A stretch of 64,000 nucleotides of DNA from Candidatus Jingweiarchaeum tengchongense (GCA_025920705.1 JAPDLJ010000001.1:124001-188000); one strand, 5' to 3'. Positions 25,604-61,552 are shown, numbered from the stretch's first letter. The notes: generated by a model from the letters alone, not told the origin. Numbers and translations: made by a program.

Positions 25604-25690
25604 ATGAAGAAATGGGTAGCTCATCTTGAGTTTCTATTTATAGCTACGATTCAGATATCTAAAAATTCTGGGGATAAAAATGAAAAATAA
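25604..25690 (+). CDS. Possible 28-aa leader ORF
   Basis: An ATG at 25604 opens a 28-codon frame (MKKWVAHLEFLFIATIQISK, then NSGDKNEK) that ends inside the start of the next gene, overlapping it by 11 nt. It starts about 25 nt after a TATA-like box, so it could be a leaderless first cistron whose translation feeds the large gene. There is no family resemblance. It may equally be untranslated leader. Confidence 0.3.
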   Translation: MKKWVAHLEFLFIATIQISKNSGDKNEK

Positions 25691-27800
25691 AATCACTCTT
25701 GTGGGTCTGGGTGAGCTCGGTCTAGGCACAAAATATGGCTATCCTGAAGCGATAACGGGATTAACACATGTATTGAAAAATGAAGATATTGACGCAATAA
25801 TTATCACTGGTGGCTTATTGCCGAGGGTTCCAAGGGTTGCAAGTAAGAGAAATTCTCAATACCTAGATACGCTTGCATCAGATGAGATAGATTCTATCCA
25901 AAAAGCTTCGATTGAAAGTAAAAAAATAATTGAACCGTTAAAAAATGTCACAAAGAAAGCAAAATGGTATTATGCGTGTGGTGAAGAGGATAGAGGAAAT
26001 CTTGAAGAGCTAGTTGATGTTAGAATTGCTGAAGCATTGGACTTACCAACAATTGTTGAAAATTTGAAAACTAAAATTGCAACATTTAGTGAGCAATTAA
26101 AATCAAAAAAGAGGGAACTTGAACTTCTAAGAGAAGAATTTGAAAAATTTGGTAAGAATAATCATGATAAAAATTATTTAAGTGAATATAGGAAAAGACG
26201 GAGGGAAATAGAGAACGAAATAAAAAGAATCGATACTGAACTTAGGGAAGATGAAGCAAATCTCGTTCAGAGACAAGAGGCATTGAAGAAGTATGGTTTC
26301 ATTAAATTTACTGGACGTTATCCACTAAAAAAAGAGGAACGTGATTTATTCTTAGAAGAGGCAAAAAGAGAGTATAAAGAATTGATCTTTCATAGCATTG
26401 GTCATGATGCAAATATAATTTTACCTGATTCGGAAGCAAATATTAAAGTAAAGGGAATGGAAATTAAAGTTGCGCACAATTCTAACAGAAAATCAGACGT
26501 ACCCTTACAGGTTGGGATACAAAGAAGGGTAATGAAAAATAAATTTAAAAATGTTACAAAAGAAAATGTTCCAGAATTGGATATCGAGGGACATCATGCT
26601 GGTGGATTCAGGGTATACATCCAGCGAAAAAGAAGAAATGTTCCTGAGCAAGTCTTCTATGTTCAGCTACCAACACTTCATCACATTGGAAAACTTGAAG
26701 AAATGCTCGCAGAAGGAATTAATAATTGGGATGTTAAAAGACTTTATGAGGGATATAGCAGCGGTTATGCTTCTGGTGCAGTAATAATGAGAAAAAGAAA
26801 TGATGGTGTAAGAGAATTTGAATTCTTTTCGTCTGATGAATTGGCAAAAATAAAAGATACTGGAATCGAAAGTTTGAGAAACAAACCAATAAAGATAGAA
26901 GCGCTTGCTGATATGCACATAGGTTGTACGAATGAGCCATCACTTCCGAATTCAATGAGTAATTATGCATTGGTGGAAGCATACAAAAATTATCAAAGGA
27001 TTCATGGTTTACCAAATATTATCGTAGCGCTTGGGGATATGGTGCAAGCAGGACCATATCGTGGGGCTGAAAGTGAAAGTAGAGTGGAAATGACAAGATT
27101 CCAGCTTGAGCAAGAAAGAGCTAAAATAATGAAGAGTAATTTGAGTAACGAAGAAAAACTTAAGAAAATTGAAGAATTGGATCGAAGCTACTTGTCATAC
27201 ATACCAATCACGAACATTAGTGAGCAAAAGATGGAGTTGAGGGATAGGTGGATTAAGCCACATGTACATAAAGTACTTGACAATGGTGGAAAAGTGTTGC
27301 TCGTCAGCGGAGATCATTACAACAAAACACTTGGTGGAAAAGAAGACGAGGCAACTGAAATAGCAAATATGATTGATGAGAGATTTAGGGACAAAGTATA
27401 TGTGCTCAAAGGGAATGAGTTCGGAACCGGGAAAAAAGTAATAGACAATTTGAGAATTTACGCGCAGCATAAACCAATGTACTCAAATCAAGATGAAGTA
27501 ATTGGTGGGATGAAACACTTGATTAGAATAAATGAAGATTGCGACATTGCATTCTTTGCGAACTGGCACCATCCTGGTTTTGGTTACATAAATAGCGCTA
27601 GTGGTGGTGTTCTAATCACTGCCTTACCTTCCTTCCAACCTGATAATCCTTATGTATCAGCGATCGGCAAGCAATCTTCAACAAATGGTTTTTACAACAT
27701 CTTCGTAAAACCCGGAAGGCAATGGTTTAAGATTGAAGTTGTGACAGATGATGCGCTATTAAATTATGTGCCTGGATTAGAAAAGAAGCCAAGAGTGTGA
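25680..27800 (+). CDS. Tandem metallophosphoesterase-like protein with central coiled coil
   Basis: This 706-residue protein is of unknown function. Residues 410-640 have calcineurin-like phosphoesterase motifs in order: ADMHIG (D411, H413), ALGDMVQ (D453), SGDHYN (D545, H546) and NWHHPGF (H630-631). The first 110 residues look like a second, eroded copy: LVGLGELGLG where DxH should be, IITGGLL in place of GD, and ACGEEDRGN in place of GNH. A Lys/Glu coiled coil spans about 120-215, followed by a GHDANIILPD-containing segment. The active half could be a nuclease, nucleotidase or phosphatase. The start is preceded by GGGGAT. The gene is followed after 4 nt by a nitrilase gene. Confidence 0.6.
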   Translation: MKNKITLVGLGELGLGTKYGYPEAITGLTHVLKNEDIDAIIITGGLLPRVPRVASKRNSQYLDTLASDEIDSIQKASIESKKIIEPLKNVTKKAKWYYACGEEDRGNLEELVDVRIAEALDLPTIVENLKTKIATFSEQLKSKKRELELLREEFEKFGKNNHDKNYLSEYRKRRREIENEIKRIDTELREDEANLVQRQEALKKYGFIKFTGRYPLKKEERDLFLEEAKREYKELIFHSIGHDANIILPDSEANIKVKGMEIKVAHNSNRKSDVPLQVGIQRRVMKNKFKNVTKENVPELDIEGHHAGGFRVYIQRKRRNVPEQVFYVQLPTLHHIGKLEEMLAEGINNWDVKRLYEGYSSGYASGAVIMRKRNDGVREFEFFSSDELAKIKDTGIESLRNKPIKIEALADMHIGCTNEPSLPNSMSNYALVEAYKNYQRIHGLPNIIVALGDMVQAGPYRGAESESRVEMTRFQLEQERAKIMKSNLSNEEKLKKIEELDRSYLSYIPITNISEQKMELRDRWIKPHVHKVLDNGGKVLLVSGDHYNKTLGGKEDEATEIANMIDERFRDKVYVLKGNEFGTGKKVIDNLRIYAQHKPMYSNQDEVIGGMKHLIRINEDCDIAFFANWHHPGFGYINSASGGVLITALPSFQPDNPYVSAIGKQSSTNGFYNIFVKPGRQWFKIEVVTDDALLNYVPGLEKKPRV

Positions 27801-27804
27801 TTTA

Positions 27805-28689
27805 ATGGTAAGGATTGTGGGAACTATTCCTCGCTATCAAAAAGACGAAAATTGTAAGATTTGTGAAATAGAGCGAATTGTGGAAAAATCTAATGGAGAC
27901 ATTATCATATTACCTGAAGAATACTTCGGTGGTCCAAAAGTAGCCTATGAAAAGGAAAGCAGCTTGGTTGACAAACTTGAAAAAATTGCAAGAGAAAGAA
28001 ACGTTGGTTTAGTTGTTGGTGTGATAGAAAAGGAAGACGATAAGAAATACCAATCAATCTGGTTCTTTAATGAAAAGGGTAAATTTCTTGGCTCTGAAAA
28101 AAAGTACAACCTTGCTGGATACGAAATGGATCCTGATTTCTACAACCTAAGTGCAAATCCATCAAAATTCTTCGAGAGAGGTGCGTATGAGATTAAGGGC
28201 ACAAAAGGAACTGGGGTCATATGTTGGGAAGTTTATGACTTACATACAAAAGTTGCATGTGATAGTGCCAACATAGACTGGATTGCTAATTTGATAAAGT
28301 TCCCAATTAATTACTTTCCTGTGTATGAAAGGAGTGGGAATAATTATGTAATAAGACAATTGGTGAAATCGGAGGAAGAGTATGTAAGATGGATGGAAAA
28401 ATTACAGGAGCTCGCGAGTGATACATTGAGTTTGGTCATCGCTTCTTGCAACCCAACTTTTCCAGGATTGGAAAATTTGGTGCCAAAGGATGCAAAGGCA
28501 TTGGCGTGTATACTACATCCAAAAAATGGTTTAGTTAGGACTACAAATTTAGAAGGTATGTTCGTTAGTTTTGATTTTGAACCTGAGACGATAAGGAATA
28601 TTAGAGAGAGTAATGATCTAAATGCAAAAGCATGGAGAATAAGACACAAATATGATAACAGAAAGGTGAAAATAGAAAGATCAGGGTGA
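27805..28689 (+). CDS. Nitrilase-superfamily carbon-nitrogen hydrolase
   Basis: This 294-residue protein carries the Glu-Lys-Cys triad of the nitrilase fold: Glu in IILPEEYFGG, Lys in GSEKKYNLAG and Cys in GVICWEVYD. Members cleave amides, nitriles or carbamoyl groups, or act in reverse as amidotransferases. The C-terminal third (after PTFPGLENLV) is not typical of the well-known NAD-synthetase or omega-amidase branches, and no substrate can be assigned. It is 4 nt downstream of the tandem phosphoesterase and probably co-transcribed. Its 3' end overlaps the convergent gene by 9 nt. Confidence 0.8.
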   Translation: MVRIVGTIPRYQKDENCKICEIERIVEKSNGDIIILPEEYFGGPKVAYEKESSLVDKLEKIARERNVGLVVGVIEKEDDKKYQSIWFFNEKGKFLGSEKKYNLAGYEMDPDFYNLSANPSKFFERGAYEIKGTKGTGVICWEVYDLHTKVACDSANIDWIANLIKFPINYFPVYERSGNNYVIRQLVKSEEEYVRWMEKLQELASDTLSLVIASCNPTFPGLENLVPKDAKALACILHPKNGLVRTTNLEGMFVSFDFEPETIRNIRESNDLNAKAWRIRHKYDNRKVKIERSG

Positions 28690-29568
28690 AACGAGTTCTG
28701 ATAAAATTTCAATTAAATCTTTTTGTGTTTCAGCAACCCACTTATTCAATCCAAATTGTTTATTGTGATTTGAAATTTCTGGAATTACTTCCCAATCAAC
28801 TGCATGGTCAGGAACTACTTCATATTTTCCAGCTTTTGGCCAGATGTATTTGTGTATTCCAATTACTGGTTTTGAAGATGCAATTGTGTATCCTGTTTCT
28901 ATCCAAGGACCTATGTTGTTTTCATCATCGACCCTTGTGATTATGCCATCTGACATATCAATTAAGTCTAAGCAGTATCTTGCGCCTTTTTTACCTGGCT
29001 GCACTTTCTTGAAGTTTTCTTCTGGTAGTGCAGATAGATCATTGCAGTAATTTTCATAAGGATTGTAGTTATCCACTAATTTCTGTGGATTAATCGCATT
29101 GAAGGCATATCTTTTTAAGAATTCTTCCATCCATACAAAATAACCTGTTTTATCTGCAAATCTCACATCCCCAGCGATGTAGAAAGTTGGTGGACTCTGA
29201 AATCCTTGAAAATTTCTAAAATTTTTTTTACCTCTAAAGTTCTCAATTTTTTGAAGCGTATCACTAATTTGAGAAGTTTCAGTTATGGTTATTGGTAGAA
29301 CGCCATAGAAACCGTAGCTTGGTGCTTCTTTCTTTAAATTCCAAAATGCAATGATAGGTAAATTCAGGCCGAGCGCATAACCAACCCCAGTCCATATCTC
29401 TGGTGTTCTTTGGTCTCTTCTTACGAGAACGAAATCACTATCTTTTATTTTTGAAAGTGAAAATTCAAGATTTTTATTTAAAACCTCTACGTCATTCTTC
29501 TCTAGCTCTTCAAGAACATCATCGATTACGCTTTTTCTTTCGTTTATTGCTAAGATTGTAGTTTTCAT
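28681..29568 (-). CDS. Two-domain nucleoside 2-deoxyribosyltransferase-like protein
   Basis: This 295-residue protein has two copies of the deoxyribosyltransferase (NDT/SLOG-like) fold. The C-terminal copy (about 125-290) has FYIAGDVRF, YCLDLIDMSDGIITRVDD and the active-site-like IGPWIETGYTIASSKPVIGI, with a Glu (E224) where NDT enzymes have their nucleophile. The N-terminal copy (1-110) has IKDSDFVLVRRD and WTGVGYALGLNLPIIAF, with Thr at the equivalent position, so it may only bind ligand. NDT relatives cleave N-glycosidic bonds of (deoxy)nucleosides, nucleotides or NAD. It converges on the nitrilase gene. Confidence 0.65.
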   Translation of the reverse strand: MKTTILAINERKSVIDDVLEELEKNDVEVLNKNLEFSLSKIKDSDFVLVRRDQRTPEIWTGVGYALGLNLPIIAFWNLKKEAPSYGFYGVLPITITETSQISDTLQKIENFRGKKNFRNFQGFQSPPTFYIAGDVRFADKTGYFVWMEEFLKRYAFNAINPQKLVDNYNPYENYCNDLSALPEENFKKVQPGKKGARYCLDLIDMSDGIITRVDDENNIGPWIETGYTIASSKPVIGIHKYIWPKAGKYEVVPDHAVDWEVIPEISNHNKQFGLNKWVAETQKDLIEILSELVSP

Positions 29569-29614
29569 TCTTTATGCAAAATGAACAACGAATATAAATT
29601 TTACTACTTAAAAA

Positions 29615-30097
29615 TTAAAAAATAATCATATAAAAATCGACTTGTGAACTGTCCTTTCTCCTTTGACCAATTTCTAGGATTACACTTTCAAGATCTTTCT
29701 TTATTTCTTTTGGGATTTTTCTAAAGATGTTACACTCTGGCATTGAATTTTCTTTTCTAAATTCATTTTCTAAGATTTCGGCAAAAAAATGCGCGATCTT
29801 TGCTCTTTCTCCCTTCTTTTTCCAAATCAATTGCGCAAACGATGGATATTTATTATAAAATCTCGGATCCTGCGAATAGCATTCCGTTATCTCGTGGACA
29901 AGAATTGCGCACCTCTCTTTAAAATCTTTGATCATCGAAAATTTATTTGGATTTAATTCTACAATTGGTGGTGTTTTCCATGGATAAGAGGTGCACGCCT
30001 CACCTATTTTATTTTCTAAAAATAAAATTGGTATATCTAAGTTTGTGAAATTTTTAACATAATTTTTTGCTTCTTCTATTTCACTAGAGAATTTCAT
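29615..30097 (-). CDS. Putative zinc metallopeptidase-like protein (HExxE)
   Basis: This 160-residue protein is without signal peptide. The segment CAILVHEITECYSQ has an HExxE motif and is followed 35 residues later by KIAHFFAEILENEF, where a third zinc ligand (His or Glu) could lie. This resembles the two-helix zinc sites of small archaeal metalloproteases, but no specific family is recognised and proteolysis is unproven. Its start overlaps the stop of the Cas4-like nuclease gene by 4 nt (ATGA), so the two are co-translated and probably act together. Confidence 0.5.
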   Translation of the reverse strand: MKFSSEIEEAKNYVKNFTNLDIPILFLENKIGEACTSYPWKTPPIVELNPNKFSMIKDFKERCAILVHEITECYSQDPRFYNKYPSFAQLIWKKKGERAKIAHFFAEILENEFRKENSMPECNIFRKIPKEIKKDLESVILEIGQRRKDSSQVDFYMIIF

Positions 30098-31632
30098 TTT
30101 AGATCAAGCGGCTCAGTAATTTGAATGCTACTTCTTAAATTGGTGACGTGTTCAAACGGAAATCTTGAAGATGCTATTCCCACGCTTTGAATTAAACCTT
30201 TTTCTTTTAGTGCTTTCTCCCTAGCTTTGAAGATTTTTTTGAGAAATGTTGTGTATGGTGTACCACATTCCCTTAACTTTTGCATCATTTCTTCTTTAAA
30301 TTCGTTCAATGCTTTTTGCTCCTTACCCACCATCTCATGCTGTTTTTTTCTTCTATAAACAACTGTTCTTTTCCTGTTAATTGGATTGATTATTTCCTGC
30401 TCTCTGACCCATCCAAGATTCTTTGCAATTTTAAGTAAAGTTGAAATCGATGTTGGTGAAATATGTGTATAGGCGCTGATTGTGGAAATTGATCTCTCTT
30501 TATTGTCTTCAAGTCCAAGGAAAAGTATTGTAAAAAGTCTTAGTGTCGAATAGTCATTTGCTTGTCTTTCCATCCATCGTAATTCACTTTCAAGCCCAGT
30601 GATATTTTTTTCTTTTGTCCAATATCGCAATGGCTTAAACTCTTCCTTTATCCTGGCCTCTTTAAGTTTTGTATTTCCATTATCAATTGCGATTTGTGTA
30701 AGCATTCCTTCAATTCCAATCGTCCTTCTTCTACCAATTATATATTCTCCATTTTCATCTTTTCTTGCCACTATCTCTCCCCTTCTCTCAACTGCTTCTT
30801 CTAAGCAAGGTGAGCATCTCTCATAGTATTCAGAATACCTGCATTTCTTCATTCTTCCTGGTTTAACATTAAATTCTTCAATTATTTCTTTTGCTAAAAT
30901 TTCATTTTTTTTCTTCAAATTTGACATTAAATCAGAAATGAATTGGAATTCGTAGAGCTCCCCTTCGCTTGGTTCGTATTCTATCATCTTCTTCGGAAAG
31001 AAAAGATAAAGTAATGATTTCCTTGAATCACCAAGTTCCCTTGCAAGTATGATCTCACCTTGCATTTGTCGCTTGACGATTGAATCAAGGAAACCATCCA
31101 ATTTCATTTCGACAGGAACCGATTGACCTTCGTGAAATTCGATTTTATCCGGTCTTCCAATTAAATTTGTTTTCTTTGAAATTATCTCTGGATTCACCAT
31201 TGCTTTAACATAAATTCCATCAAATGCTTTCTTTGAATTTAAATTTGAATAGAAAATCTCATGAAATCGCTTTGCTTCAAATTCGGATTTTGTGTGAATA
31301 AAAATATTCTTTAGTTTATCTACTTGTTCATCATTTAAGAAAACAAATTTATTGTTGTAATTGAAAATGTCTTGTAGGTATGCATCAGCAATCTTACTCT
31401 TCGTGATTTCTCTGTTTATATCAATGCTATTTCCTCGTTCTATTTTTGAAATCAGATCTGATGCTAATTTTTTATCAACATTACAAGAAATACTGAACAA
31501 ATCATGAATGAGTTTTCCCCTCTCCATAGATCTATTTAAAATTGTTCTTCCACGATTGTATTTCCAGTGCCATTCTAATGGACAATGATCGAATGTAACA
31601 ACTTCGCTAATGGTGTTAAGCATCGATTCCAT
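30094..31632 (-). CDS. Cas4/RecB-like PD-(D/E)XK nuclease fused to a winged helix
   Basis: This protein has about 512 residues from the ATG at 31632. The N-terminal half has the Cas4 layout: first Cys in VVTFDHCPLEWHW, His in RGKLIHDLFS, D and ExK in GRPDKIEF...VPVEMKLDG, Gln in RQMQGEIILAREL, and three further Cys in CRYSEYYERCSPC for a 4Fe-4S cluster. Such enzymes are DNA exonucleases. The C-terminal half has a winged helix (STISAYTHISPTSISTLLKI) and a Lys/Arg-rich end, so it may bind DNA sequence-specifically. A GTG at 31695 extends the frame by 21 unusual residues. No Cas1, Cas2 or repeat array is nearby, so a CRISPR role is unlikely. Confidence 0.7.
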   Translation of the reverse strand: MESMLNTISEVVTFDHCPLEWHWKYNRGRTILNRSMERGKLIHDLFSISCNVDKKLASDLISKIERGNSIDINREITKSKIADAYLQDIFNYNNKFVFLNDEQVDKLKNIFIHTKSEFEAKRFHEIFYSNLNSKKAFDGIYVKAMVNPEIISKKTNLIGRPDKIEFHEGQSVPVEMKLDGFLDSIVKRQMQGEIILARELGDSRKSLLYLFFPKKMIEYEPSEGELYEFQFISDLMSNLKKKNEILAKEIIEEFNVKPGRMKKCRYSEYYERCSPCLEEAVERRGEIVARKDENGEYIIGRRRTIGIEGMLTQIAIDNGNTKLKEARIKEEFKPLRYWTKEKNITGLESELRWMERQANDYSTLRLFTILFLGLEDNKERSISTISAYTHISPTSISTLLKIAKNLGWVREQEIINPINRKRTVVYRRKKQHEMVGKEQKALNEFKEEMMQKLRECGTPYTTFLKKIFKAREKALKEKGLIQSVGIASSRFPFEHVTNLRSSIQITEPLDLK

Positions 31633-31710
31633 TTTATTGGATACAAGATTTGGTTTTTTAAGATTTACTCTATAGTAGTAATTATAGATTTTCACATAAA
31701 AATATCAAAA

Positions 31711-31729
31711 TGACTACAAAATGTAGTCA
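31711..31729. promoter_or_regulatory. Perfect inverted repeat between Cas4-like nuclease and divergent gene
   Basis: TGACTACA-AAA-TGTAGTCA is an 8-bp perfect inverted repeat with a 3-nt spacer. It lies in the 83-nt region between divergent genes, next to TATA-like runs on both strands. It is too short and lacks a T-run for a clear terminator. A dimeric regulator's operator fits better, and the winged helix of the neighbouring nuclease is one candidate binder. Confidence 0.4.
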
Positions 31730-31778: not shown

Positions 31779-32291
31779 ATGGATCTGTTTGTTGATAAGG
31801 AAAAAATAGTATGGATATTGTTTCTGTTTCTAATTTTTTTGAATAGTGTGGTAAAGCCAGAATTGGAGGAGCAAATAGAAAGAATGGAAATAATTAGGTT
31901 AAGTTTGGAGAAATCAGCTGAAGAAATGAGGCAAACAACAGAAAGTTTCGAGAAATCAATAAAGGAATTGCAAGAAACACAGAATAAAAGTGAAGATTGG
32001 ATTAGGTTGAGGAATTTGATGGAAATAACCAGTTCGTTGAATGTAAGTAGGTGTGAAGAAATCAAAGAAGAAGTTTTTCAGATACTTTGCGTTGGATACA
32101 TAGTGAATGAAACGCAAGATTACACAAAATGTTGGCAGATAAATGAGTCTTCAATTGTCTACAATAATAGTTTAAGGGATTGGTGTTTTTATTTTAGTGC
32201 GCTTGTTGAACTAAAAAATGCTTCACTATGTAATTATGTTAGTAATACTTCTCTTAGGCAAGAATGTTTTTTAAGATCAAGAAATATTTAA
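31779..32291 (+). CDS. Membrane-anchored coiled-coil protein with Cys-pair repeats
   Basis: This 170-residue protein has a short N-terminus, one membrane helix (KIVWILFLFLIFLNSVV), a coiled coil (about 28-75) and an extracytoplasmic C-terminus. That domain has two C-x11-C units (CEEIKEEVFQILC and CNYVSNTSLRQEC) and one longer Cys pair, each preceded by helical Ala/Asn-rich sequence. It also has several Asn-glycosylation-like sites. Disulphide-stapled helical hairpins are likely. The function is unknown. It converges on rtcB with a 4-nt overlap. Confidence 0.6.
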   Translation: MDLFVDKEKIVWILFLFLIFLNSVVKPELEEQIERMEIIRLSLEKSAEEMRQTTESFEKSIKELQETQNKSEDWIRLRNLMEITSSLNVSRCEEIKEEVFQILCVGYIVNETQDYTKCWQINESSIVYNNSLRDWCFYFSALVELKNASLCNYVSNTSLRQECFLRSRNI

Positions 32292-33797: not shown

Positions 33798-34586
33798 ATG
33801 AAAAGTATTGAGGGGAAACTAGTAAAAATTGAAGGCTTAGAGAACTTAATCGTTGTTGGAGACTTACATGGTGATTTTAATAGTTTTAAAAAAATTGTTG
33901 ATGAGTGGAGAAAACAAAAAGGTTACATCATTTTTCTTGGTGATTATGCAGACCGCGGTAGCAGTGGCTTAGAAATCATAGAAAGTCTGATGGAATTGAA
34001 GAAAGATAAGAACGTAATATTGCTCAAAGGGAATCATGAAGACTACGATAAGTATGGCCGACCTTCATTTTCACCATGTACTTTGATTCATGAAGTTGAG
34101 CAAAAAATGGGTGAATGGAAATCTTATTTTTCAAAAAAATTAGAACCATTCTTAAATGAATTGAACTTGGCTGCGATTGTAGATAAAATTTTATTTGTTC
34201 ATGGTGGTATAAGTTCAAGAATAAGAAGTATCGAAGATTTGAAGCATCCTAGTAAGCAAATAGAAGAAGATGTGATATGGAGTGATCCTAAAAGTGATTG
34301 TGGGAAAGGAGAATTCCCAAATTATAGAGGTGCTGGAGTCGAATTTGGTACAGACATTGTCCAAAAAGTGTTCAGTAAGTTGGGTGTGGATTTATTAATA
34401 AGAAGTCACCAACCCACGATTGCAAAGTATGGTCCATATTTTGCGTTAAATGACATGGTTATCATAATTTCCTCTACTGACATTTATGGGGGAATACCGC
34501 ATTACTTAAACATACCAGGAAACAAAATTGATGCAATTGCCAAAAATTCAAGAGAAATTTTGAAATACACAAAATTTTTACATTAA
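33798..34586 (+). CDS. PPP-family serine/threonine protein phosphatase
   Basis: This 262-residue protein has the complete PPP metal site: GDLHGDF (residues 22-28), LGDYADRGSSGLE, KGNHED and VHGGIS, with a later RSHQP His motif. This is the PP1/PP2A-type fold. Archaeal members dephosphorylate Ser/Thr/Tyr residues, and diadenosine-tetraphosphatase activity is an alternative for this superfamily. It is transcribed divergently from rtcB across a 61-nt region with TATA-like runs (GATATATAAAG), and converges on archease with 4-nt overlap. Confidence 0.85.
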   Translation: MKSIEGKLVKIEGLENLIVVGDLHGDFNSFKKIVDEWRKQKGYIIFLGDYADRGSSGLEIIESLMELKKDKNVILLKGNHEDYDKYGRPSFSPCTLIHEVEQKMGEWKSYFSKKLEPFLNELNLAAIVDKILFVHGGISSRIRSIEDLKHPSKQIEEDVIWSDPKSDCGKGEFPNYRGAGVEFGTDIVQKVFSKLGVDLLIRSHQPTIAKYGPYFALNDMVIIISSTDIYGGIPHYLNIPGNKIDAIAKNSREILKYTKFLH

Positions 34587-58343: not shown

Positions 58344-59555
58344 ATGAAAATAAAATTTGCACATATCGGGGATACACATATTGGTGCAAGTAATTTCAAG
58401 CTAAGGGAGAGGGAAGAGGATTTTGAAAGGGCATTTGAAATAGCTGTAGACAAAATAATAGAAGAAAAAGTAGACTTTGTAATACATAGTGGAGATCTAT
58501 TTGATAGGGGGAGACCTTCACTCAAAACTTTTTTATTTTGTTTGGAACAATTAAAGCGATTAAAAAAAGCGAATATCCCAGTTTTTATCGTTCCAGGGTC
58601 CCATGACATCAGCACTGAAGGCACATCAATCTCGATCTTTGAAAGAGTTGATTTGATCAAGGATGTTTCTTCAAGGGAATTCTTTGAAATGGGTGAGGAA
58701 AAGAGTAATTTCAGTGGAATGATGTTTGAAATCAAAGGGAACAAAGTTTTCATCTGCGGTTTGCCAGGAAGAAGAGCAAGGATTAATGAAATCTATGAAA
58801 AATTTTATGTGGATTTACCAAAGGATGCATACAAGATATTTGTGTTTCACCATATTATTTCTGATATCCCAAATTCTGTGCCATTCAGTGATATCGCAAC
58901 TTCTCAGTTACCTAAGGGTTTTGATTATTATGCTGGTGGTCATTGGCATTCAAGATTTGAAATGAAATATAACAGTCATTTAATTGTCTATCCTGGATCA
59001 CTTGAATATTGCGATGTAAGAGAAATGGAATCAGATGCTGAAAAGGGTTTTTATATCGTGGAAGTTGATAATGGAAAAACAAGCTTAAAATGGATTAAAG
59101 TGAAAGTAAGAAAGATTATGGTGAGGAAATTAAACTGCAACAATTTAAGCGCTCATGAAGCGACTGAAAATTGTTTAAAATTGATAAGAGAAGAGGCAAA
59201 AAACCTAGAAAATGGCGTTCTCATACTAAAACTTGAAGGTAGATTAAAGAGTGGTAGCAGAGGAGAAATAGATAGGACAATAATAGAAAAAGTATCAAAG
59301 GAATTTGGTGTATTGATAACACAGGTTTATGTATCTGACTTACTTGACCCCACTTCAGCAATCTCTATTGACATTAGATCGAAAAGTTTAGAACAAATAG
59401 AACAAGAATATCTCGAAAGGCAGAAATATGATACGAAGATGATAAAAGTTGCAAGGGAACTCATTTCAATCCTTGGGCAAGAACTTGGTGGAGATGAAAT
59501 AGAGAGAGAAGTAAATAAGGCCTGCGAAATAATAGAAAAGGAGATACTTCAATGA
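58344..59555 (+). CDS. mre11: DNA double-strand break repair nuclease Mre11
   Basis: This 403-residue protein has KFAHIGDTHIGAS (D10, H12), VIHSGDLFDRGRPS, VPGSHDIS (usually GNHD, so Ser replaces Asn), FHHIISD and YYAGGHWHSRF, the complete Mre11 metal site. The C-terminal part (about 300-400) is the capping and Rad50-binding region. The gene overlaps rad50 by 4 nt (ATGA). HerA and NurA genes, often adjacent in archaea, are absent. Confidence 0.93.
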   Translation: MKIKFAHIGDTHIGASNFKLREREEDFERAFEIAVDKIIEEKVDFVIHSGDLFDRGRPSLKTFLFCLEQLKRLKKANIPVFIVPGSHDISTEGTSISIFERVDLIKDVSSREFFEMGEEKSNFSGMMFEIKGNKVFICGLPGRRARINEIYEKFYVDLPKDAYKIFVFHHIISDIPNSVPFSDIATSQLPKGFDYYAGGHWHSRFEMKYNSHLIVYPGSLEYCDVREMESDAEKGFYIVEVDNGKTSLKWIKVKVRKIMVRKLNCNNLSAHEATENCLKLIREEAKNLENGVLILKLEGRLKSGSRGEIDRTIIEKVSKEFGVLITQVYVSDLLDPTSAISIDIRSKSLEQIEQEYLERQKYDTKMIKVARELISILGQELGGDEIEREVNKACEIIEKEILQ

Positions 59556-61552
59556 TAATCAAAAGATTGAGGATCGAGAATTTAAGATCACATGAGAAGA
59601 GTGAGATCGAATTTAACAAAGGTATAACTGTTTTTACTGGTAGAACTGGTAGTGGAAAATCGTCTATTTTGATGGCAATTGAATATGCTCTTTTTGGAAG
59701 TGAAAGTGGAATCTTAAATTCAATGATAATGAGAAGGAGAAGTAACAGTACATTGATCATTCTGGAATTTGAACATATGGGTAAGAACTATAAGGTGGTG
59801 AGGGGGCTTAGGAGAAGTGGTTCGAGCATACAGGTTGATGTAAATAATTTGAAGATATTAGAAAATGATAGGCCAATAAACATACTTGCTAGAAGTACTG
59901 ACTTAAATGAGAAGATTATACAAATTTTGAATTATCCTAAGGATGTGAAACCTAGAGATTTGTTTGAAATTACTAGTTATACGAGACAAGATGAAATAAG
60001 AAAAATAATTGAGATGAAGCCACAGGAGAGACAGGTTTACATAGATAGGACACTGCAGCTCTCTAAGTATCAGAGAACATGGGAAAATATGAGGGATGTG
60101 ATAAGAAAATTTGAAAATATGGCTGAGTTGAAGGCAGTTAGAATTGAAAATTATGATTCGCTATTGAAAAAAATTGCTGAAAGAGAAGCGGAAAAAGATG
60201 AAAAAGAAAAAGAAATCGAAATAAAAAAATTAGAATATGAGAAAGCCGTTAATGATTATAGATTATGCCATGAGGAACTTATCAAATTAAAAGAAAAAGT
60301 CGAAGAAATCATTGAAAATAAACAAAGATATGATGCATTAAATGGAAAGCTAGTGAGAATAAGAGATGATATTAAAAATAATGAAAGGAATATATTATTA
60401 CTCGGAGACAAAATTAGTAAAATAAATGCTGAAAAAGACAAAATCGAAATAAAAGAAAAATTAGAGGAATTACAACACAAGAGGGGAGAGTTAAGCTCAA
60501 AGAGGGATTTCTTACTGGAAGAAAGAGAGAAAATAAAAAGAGAGGTTTCAAGGATAATGGAAATTGAAGAAGGAGAATGTCCACTCTGTAAACAGAAGGT
60601 TACCAAAGAACACATTAAAAATTTAGAGAAGGAGTACAAGCAGAGGATGGATGAAATTAAAGAAAAATTAGACGAAGTGGATGAAGAAGTAAAATTAATT
60701 TTGAAGAAAATAGAATTGGCAGAGAAGTTACAAGAGTTTGAGAGAGAATTGAACAAGTATAATTCACTTTTAAACGAGAAAAAAGAAGTTGTTAATGAGT
60801 TAATTAAAGAAGAAAATGAAATTAAAAAAGAATTAGAAAAATTGGGTGGAGAAATAAAAGATTATGAACTAGTAAAAAGAGCAATTGATGAGAAGAGCAA
60901 AATCGAGCGCGAAAGCCACATTTTTGTTGTTAGACTTGAAAGCGAAATCAAGCACTTGGAGCAAGAGATTGCTAGTCTCAATGAAGAAATTGCAGAATTA
61001 AAAAAAGAAGTTTTTGAAATTGAGAAGAATAGGAAAGAATATGAAAAATTAAAGAATTTGATTGATGTCTTAGTAAAATTAAGAGAAGACATCAGAAATA
61101 TCAGGGAAATTGTAAGGAATAAGTTTTTAGAAGATTTAAGGCGGGAATTTCAGCAAAAGTTTGAAGAAATAAGAAGATACGATCGAGAATACATCGTTGA
61201 TATAAAAAGCGATTATGAACCTGTAGCCTACACTTCTGAGGGAGAAGAAGTGCCAATTCAAAATTTAAGTGGTGGAGAAAAGACAAGTGTCGCGTTAGCT
61301 TATAGATTGGCACTTTCCAATTTGGCCGCCCAAATTTCTGGTGTGATGCAGAGTGAAATATTAATACTTGATGAACCAACAATTGGCTTCGACCGAGAAG
61401 ATATCAGGGCACTTCCGGAGGCCTTAAGGAATATTAAAACAATACCGCAAATTATTATTGTGACGCATGAGGAAGAGCTAAAAAATGCTGCTGATTATAA
61501 ATATGAAGTAAAGAAAGAGGGTGGTGTTTCAAGAATCGTTGAAGTAACCTAA
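59552..61552 (+). CDS. rad50: DNA double-strand break repair ATPase Rad50
   Basis: This 666-residue SMC-like protein has Walker A GRTGSGKS (residues 30-37), Q-loop region ITSYTRQDEI, long coiled coils, zinc hook CPLC (343-346), ABC signature NLSGGEKTS (571-579) and Walker B ILILDEPTIGFD. The coiled coil is shorter than in typical archaeal Rad50 (about 850-1000 residues). It forms the end-processing complex with Mre11. It overlaps trm56 by 4 nt at the 3' end. Confidence 0.95.
   Translation: MIIKRLRIENLRSHEKSEIEFNKGITVFTGRTGSGKSSILMAIEYALFGSESGILNSMIMRRRSNSTLIILEFEHMGKNYKVVRGLRRSGSSIQVDVNNLKILENDRPINILARSTDLNEKIIQILNYPKDVKPRDLFEITSYTRQDEIRKIIEMKPQERQVYIDRTLQLSKYQRTWENMRDVIRKFENMAELKAVRIENYDSLLKKIAEREAEKDEKEKEIEIKKLEYEKAVNDYRLCHEELIKLKEKVEEIIENKQRYDALNGKLVRIRDDIKNNERNILLLGDKISKINAEKDKIEIKEKLEELQHKRGELSSKRDFLLEEREKIKREVSRIMEIEEGECPLCKQKVTKEHIKNLEKEYKQRMDEIKEKLDEVDEEVKLILKKIELAEKLQEFERELNKYNSLLNEKKEVVNELIKEENEIKKELEKLGGEIKDYELVKRAIDEKSKIERESHIFVVRLESEIKHLEQEIASLNEEIAELKKEVFEIEKNRKEYEKLKNLIDVLVKLREDIRNIREIVRNKFLEDLRREFQQKFEEIRRYDREYIVDIKSDYEPVAYTSEGEEVPIQNLSGGEKTSVALAYRLALSNLAAQISGVMQSEILILDEPTIGFDREDIRALPEALRNIKTIPQIIIVTHEEELKNAADYKYEVKKEGGVSRIVEVT

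Follow-up and report, generated by a model that had tools for sequence, protein, structure and literature searches.

The enzymes of the metallophosphoesterase (calcineurin-like) superfamily are recognized by a two-layer beta sandwich fold and by five motifs, I to V (DxHxG, GD, GNH, H and GHxH). The fold is found in the nuclease Mre11 (SbcD), which forms a dimer and has Rad50 as its partner, as well as in the PolD small subunit DP1 and the eukaryotic polymerase B-subunits. Nucleases of the PD-(D/E)XK superfamily, such as those of the Cas4/RecB type, have an active-site set of H, D, (D/E)xK and Q, with additional cluster cysteines in Cas4. One protein resembling each of these groups is encoded in a 64,000-nt stretch of DNA (hereafter the window) of Candidatus Jingweiarchaeum tengchongense, whose genome (G000; 1.1 Mb, 92.5% complete) belongs to a class of DPANN archaea. 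The two proteins, P1 and P5, are the outer members of an island of five open reading frames (ORFs), P1 to P5. A sequence-only reading of the window had taken the five as one module; the better finding is an undescribed DPANN phosphoesterase family, that of P1, which in some of its genomes has a Cas4-like nuclease as a partner. The ORFs are as follows.

25680-27800, plus strand: P1, ORF of 706 aa
27805-28689, plus strand: P2, ORF of 294 aa
28681-29568, minus strand: P3, ORF of 295 aa
29615-30097, minus strand: P4, ORF of 160 aa
30094-31695, minus strand: P5, ORF of 533 aa

The island lies between rpl3, of the ribosomal cluster, and rtcB-archease, which are RNA-repair genes. This position, the absence of housekeeping genes, and the convergence of two plus-strand and three minus-strand genes with a tail-to-tail overlap of 9 nt between P2 and P3 (28681-28689) all agree with the sequence-only reading. 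The span given there, 25604-31729, does contain the five ORFs, with P1 starting at 25680 and not at 25604. Because P1 and P2 are only 4 nt apart and P5 overlaps P4 by 4 nt, P1-P2 and P5-P4-P3 are likely two convergent operons; the gap between P4 and P3 is 46 nt. The z-scores of codon usage for P1-P5 run from -0.3 to 2.1, inside the host range or close to it, which indicates genes rather than chance ORFs.

A profile of P5 gave strong matches in only four of 378 genomes of the class (G000, G026, G016 and G003), the weak matches in G081 and G015 being to short generic ORFs only. Each of the four has a P1-family gene beside P5 in one and the same slot, which is flanked by rpl3 and rtcB-archease. 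The gene order in G026 is rpl3(-), P1(+), P5(-), rtcB(-), archease(-), with an 8-nt overlap where the tails of P1 and P5 meet. In G016 and G003 the order, in the orientation of the window, is rpl3(-), a gene of 173-178 aa (+), P5(-), P1-like (+), rtcB(-), archease(-). The pair spans three families, all of the same DPANN class, and its presence in the same slot of all three implies that it is older than the P2-P4 genes of this lineage. The P1 tree places the G000 copy near that of G026, and the copies of G003 and G016 in another subclade; constraint of the four copies into one clade was rejected in an approximately unbiased (AU) test (p_AU 0.0265). The tree, the AU test and the reversed gene order together indicate that P5 is paired with two kinds of P1, in two arrangements.

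Alternatively, P1 and P5 may merely abut, having unrelated jobs in an inherited rpl3-rtcB stretch that tolerates insertions. Several observations point this way and weigh against a functional pair: 53 of the 57 genomes with P1 are without P5 and mostly show other neighbors of P1; rtcB is also near rpl3 in G037, which has no P1, so that the slot is perhaps just a stable one; P2-P4 were evidently added at this same slot; and all P1-P5 cases are found in this one chromosomal slot. The AU p-value is modest, and the P1 tree has long branches. Simple abutment is harder to reconcile with P1 lying beside P5 in all four P5 genomes, given two gene arrangements and P1 copies that belong to two subclades, and we regard it as unlikely, if a serious contender. 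The linkage of P1 and P5 is well supported, though some of it may come from joint inheritance in a slot that is stable.

The three inner genes have a different history. P2-P4 lie between P1 and P5 only in G000, and among 111 class genomes no ortholog of P2, P3 or P4 was found; P2 has one weak paralog, in G078. The inferred status of P2-P4 is that of lineage-specific additions; their simplest history would be an insertion at the P1/P5 junction in this lineage, with loss elsewhere as the alternative. The five genes are not one conserved unit, since P1-P5 persists without P2-P4. The division into a plus-strand pair and a minus-strand trio fares no better as a natural split, the conserved pair consisting of the outer genes, one per strand. 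Conserved neighborhoods, which were to show either a joint unit or two independent operons, gave a third outcome: P1 and P5 kept together in four genomes, and P2-P4 confined to one of them.

P2 matches CN_hydrolase (PF00795, 3.7e-10), above the Pfam cut-off, and its residues E38-K100-C140 are at the places of the nitrilase triad, so it is predicted to be a nitrilase-fold amidase with a putative triad. P3 matches Nuc_deoxyrib_tr (PF05014, 6e-8), also above the cut-off, over residues 130-239 of its C-terminal half only. E224 is at the place of the catalytic Glu (putative), and the first half of P3 resembles a degenerate copy. P4 has a HEITE motif at residue 68 (HExxE, zincin-like) and no family match in the library searches. 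The domain calls made at the outset stand for P2, P3 and P5, which pass their Pfam cut-offs; that of P4 comes down to the motif, and the phosphoesterase match of P1 is sub-threshold (E 0.004). Our guess is that P2-P4 form a nucleotide clean-up set.

The P1 family is single-copy and was detected in 57 of the 378 class genomes, in 16 families (29 hits in family f13), as well as in Micrarchaeota. Two short patterns, scanned against 84,980 species genomes with limited sensitivity, placed the family only in that class and in Micrarchaeota. By profile comparison P1 is homologous to the G003 and G016 proteins from the N half into the C domain (prob 96.9, E 1.5e-10), and to the 725-aa proteins of f13 over almost the full length (E 2e-28). 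No description of a P1-like family was found in the literature searched. The family is an undescribed, DPANN-wide one, named by no library searched. A winged helix, weakly matched (MarR 0.019, DnaD_N 5e-4), is at the N-terminus of some P1 relatives (L012 and L013). This is absent from the P1 of the P5-bearing genomes, where P5 has one.

The organization of P1 is given below.

25680-26879, plus strand: N-terminal half, residues 1-400, a degenerate phosphoesterase-like fold by the order of secondary structure
26034-26399, plus strand: coiled coil, about residues 119-240, a long insert between the positions of motifs III and IV
26880-27797, plus strand: C-terminal metallophosphoesterase domain, residues 401-706, from the invariant columns of the alignment
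26910-26918, plus strand: motif I, D411-M-H413, from the alignment
27033-27038, plus strand: motif II, G452-D453, from the alignment
27312-27317, plus strand: motif III, D545-H546 (Asn to Asp in the window genome), from the alignment
27468-27470, plus strand: motif IV, H597, from the alignment
27561-27569, plus strand: motif V, N628-W-H630, where the first His of GHxH is Asn here and Asp in many relatives

The only invariant residues in a 33-row alignment of P1 are D411, H413, H546, G578, H597 and H630, all in the C half, and five of the six are at classic phosphoesterase motif positions. Motifs I-V are present as a full set in the Micrarchaeota relatives, with two positions substituted in the window. 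The N half has the strand order and motif positions of the C half and has lost the metal ligands (GGLLP, GEEDR, GHHAGG), with GG for GD and GEED for GNH; a profile alignment of the two halves is in motif register, with a weak score. The AlphaFold2 model of P1 was graded good (pLDDT 79, pTM 0.77) and displays the two-layer beta sandwich of the superfamily. A Foldseek search with the model gave 38 PDB matches at E <= 0.001, of which nearly all those listed are phosphoesterase-fold structures; the closest solved folds are Mre11 (best), polymerase B-subunits, PolD-DP1, Rv0805, GpdQ, SbcD and LpxH. From motifs and model, P1 is predicted to be a metallophosphoesterase (calcineurin-like) superfamily member built of tandem halves, with a degenerate N half, and the tandem phosphoesterase of the sequence-only reading is thereby retained. 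The fold matches would fit a phosphodiesterase and do not fix the substrate.

Since Mre11 and DP1 are among its best PDB fold matches, P1 might be seen as a diverged form of either. This is hardly credible, as separate Mre11-Rad50 and DP1 genes are present and P1 differs in build, with a pair of phosphoesterase halves plus a coiled coil. In the window a Mre11-like gene (58344-59555) precedes a Rad50-like one (59552-61552), and on contig C37 of G000 a DP1-like gene lies beside a DP2-like gene. Separate genes were found likewise in G026 and G016; in all three genomes the identities were read from the sequences, and the DP1-like gene adjoins Cdc6-like or DP2-like genes. P1 was rejected as the Mre11 or DP1 of these genomes.

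The start of P5 is probably an internal ATG at residue 22 (position 31632), where the proteins of its relatives begin. It has two recognizable regions.

30814-31611, minus strand: nuclease domain, residues 29-294, with Cas4-like cysteines C38, C285 and C294
30313-30537, minus strand: winged-helix region, residues 387-461 (F-112 4.7e-4 and MarR_2 0.0016, both sub-cut-off; MJ223 0.01)

The match of P5 to PDDEXK_1 (7e-7, 29.8 bits) is above the cut-off of 22, and the active-site set of the superfamily is present as H64, D183, E196-x-K198 and Q210, with H64, D183, K198 and Q210 invariant in four relatives. C38, C285 and C294 are conserved; the fourth cluster position is non-Cys in the window, where there is an extra C297. 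The Cas4 match is weak (3e-5, 21.7 bits against a cut-off of 65), and no cas genes are among the neighbors read, so P5 is not identified as Cas4. The earlier description as a Cas4/RecB-like winged-helix nuclease holds. No match to the P5 architecture was found in literature searches. Upstream of P5 is a palindrome, TGACTACAAAATGTAGTCA, at window 31711-31729, and another, ATGTAGATTATAATCTACAT, is upstream of P1 in G026 (L015 453-472). The two are not common in sequence, nor are such palindromes shared across all four P5 genomes; they are possibly candidate operators for the winged helix, with chance as an alternative.

We propose that P1 and P5 process nucleic-acid ends. This is an inference: P5 has a nuclease fold, P1 has a fold like that of Mre11/DP1, and recurrent neighbors of P1 act on nucleic acids, namely DHH/DHHA1 in f13, a LigD 3'-phosphoesterase in family f5, LigT in G309 and RtcB in four families. 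P1 would be a one-chain pseudo-dimer resembling the Mre11 dimer, in which the dead N half and the coiled coil would bind or position the substrate and the C half would hydrolyse phosphodiester bonds in nucleic acid. P5 would degrade or resect the same ends, and together the two would process broken or blocked nucleic-acid ends. The amidase P2, the N-glycosidase-like P3 and the zincin-like P4 would be additions at the tail ends of the two operons led by P1 and P5. We consider the chances evenly balanced that the locus is composite in this way, an end-processing pair with appended P2-P4. Besides the points on linkage raised above, this has to be set against the altered metal site of P1 in the clade of the window (motif III Asn to Asp, motif V first His to Asn), and the missing Cas4-like cysteine of the window P5. 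The Foldseek scores of P1 are modest (E 1.4e-5; target TM <= 0.57), and its matches include, besides nucleases, phosphoesterases for cyclic nucleotides and lipids (Rv0805, GpdQ, LpxH). The single-sequence structure model of P5 is uninformative (pLDDT 34).

The neighbors of P1 also allow a close rival, in which RNA ends (3' phosphate, cyclic phosphate or phosphodiester) are healed by P1 so that RtcB-archease can join them. P1 is within 5 kb of rtcB in families f1, f4, f19 and f15, and it adjoins the LigD 3'-phosphoesterase and LigT genes already mentioned. However, RtcB is near-universal (106 of 111 genomes) whereas 15% of genomes have P1, rtcB lies at a distance from P1 or on another contig in f13 and f5, the adjacency in f1, f4 and f19 reflects one common slot, and the superfamily of P5 mostly cuts DNA. 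RNA end repair is accordingly a rather improbable role. In the f5 loci (L014, L055, L056) the P1-family gene is between a uS2-like gene and the gene for LigD 3'-phosphoesterase, here a stand-alone protein, in a tail-to-tail arrangement that leaves gaps of 1-5 nt or overlaps by 11 nt. Frames of RtcB of ~950-1475 aa occur in G015, G008, G056, G075, G080 and G021, the family match being split after about residue 50, which looks like inteins in RtcB.

A defence or nucleotide-signalling island, as first suggested, is very doubtful. The types of domain (PD-(D/E)XK nuclease, nucleoside 2-deoxyribosyltransferase (NDT)-like, nitrilase) do occur in defence loci, and the distribution of P1 is patchy. In G232 (L061 8340-13434) the P1-family gene is followed on the same strand by two NDT-like genes with a thymidine kinase-like gene between them. 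Only two of 32 genomes have NDT genes adjoining P1, and an NDT-P1 association was rejected as a rule; nothing beyond the presence of the NDT fold speaks for signalling. PADLOC models gave no system, only a weak Cas4 match. Relatives were found neither in viral-contig scans for P1, P5 and P3, nor in phage tblastn for P1, P3, P4 and P5, nor in a plasmid search for P3; a plasmid search for P2 found distant nitrilases only. Association with mobile elements, also raised at the outset, was not borne out: no tRNA lies closer than 5 kb to the island, and there are no meaningful repeats. Host-like codon usage and the fixed slot at the ribosomal flank argue in the same direction.

Two further genes are present near the island. 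A 170-aa gene between P5 and rtcB (window 31779-32291, plus strand) has a hydrophobic N-terminus and a likely coiled coil, with no family match. A Metallophos-family gene is between rtcB and archease (window 33798-34586, plus strand; PF00149 2.4e-26). Neither has a counterpart at the same place in G026, G003 or G016.

A bolder form of the end-processing proposal, which we hold to be quite improbable, is that P1 and P5 are a DPANN-specific nuclease pair for ends or blocked ends not handled by Mre11-Rad50, with the P3/P2 couple using the damaged nucleotides released. If this is true, P1, as a single-chain pseudo-Mre11 dimer, would stand with P5 beside Mre11-Rad50. Independently of this bolder form, a dead and a live phosphoesterase in one chain with an internal coiled coil would make an unusual layout for a nuclease-like protein, and with P5 as its partner P1 offers a testable pair. 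Genomes of about 1 Mb keep few optional genes, which makes an extra nuclease-like enzyme kept beside Mre11-Rad50 informative.

In comparison with known systems, the C half of P1 has the phosphoesterase fold and motifs of Mre11/SbcD, its best Foldseek match. In contrast to Mre11, P1 has two halves in one chain, the N half being degenerate, and a coiled coil inside the phosphoesterase fold in place of a Rad50 partner. P1 also matches the phosphoesterase fold of PolD DP1 and the eukaryotic polymerase B-subunits, but unlike DP1 it is not adjoined by a polymerase large-subunit gene. P3 shares its Pfam match and a putative catalytic residue with nucleoside 2-deoxyribosyltransferases, from which it differs in its double length and apparently degenerate first half. 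P2 agrees with the nitrilase superfamily in its Pfam match and putative catalytic residues, but is without orthologs in the relatives searched. P5 shares with Cas4/RecB-type nucleases the H, D, E-x-K, Q set and cysteines at Cas4-like places, whereas it differs from Cas4 in being away from cas genes, in having one cluster cysteine replaced, and in its fusion to a winged helix.

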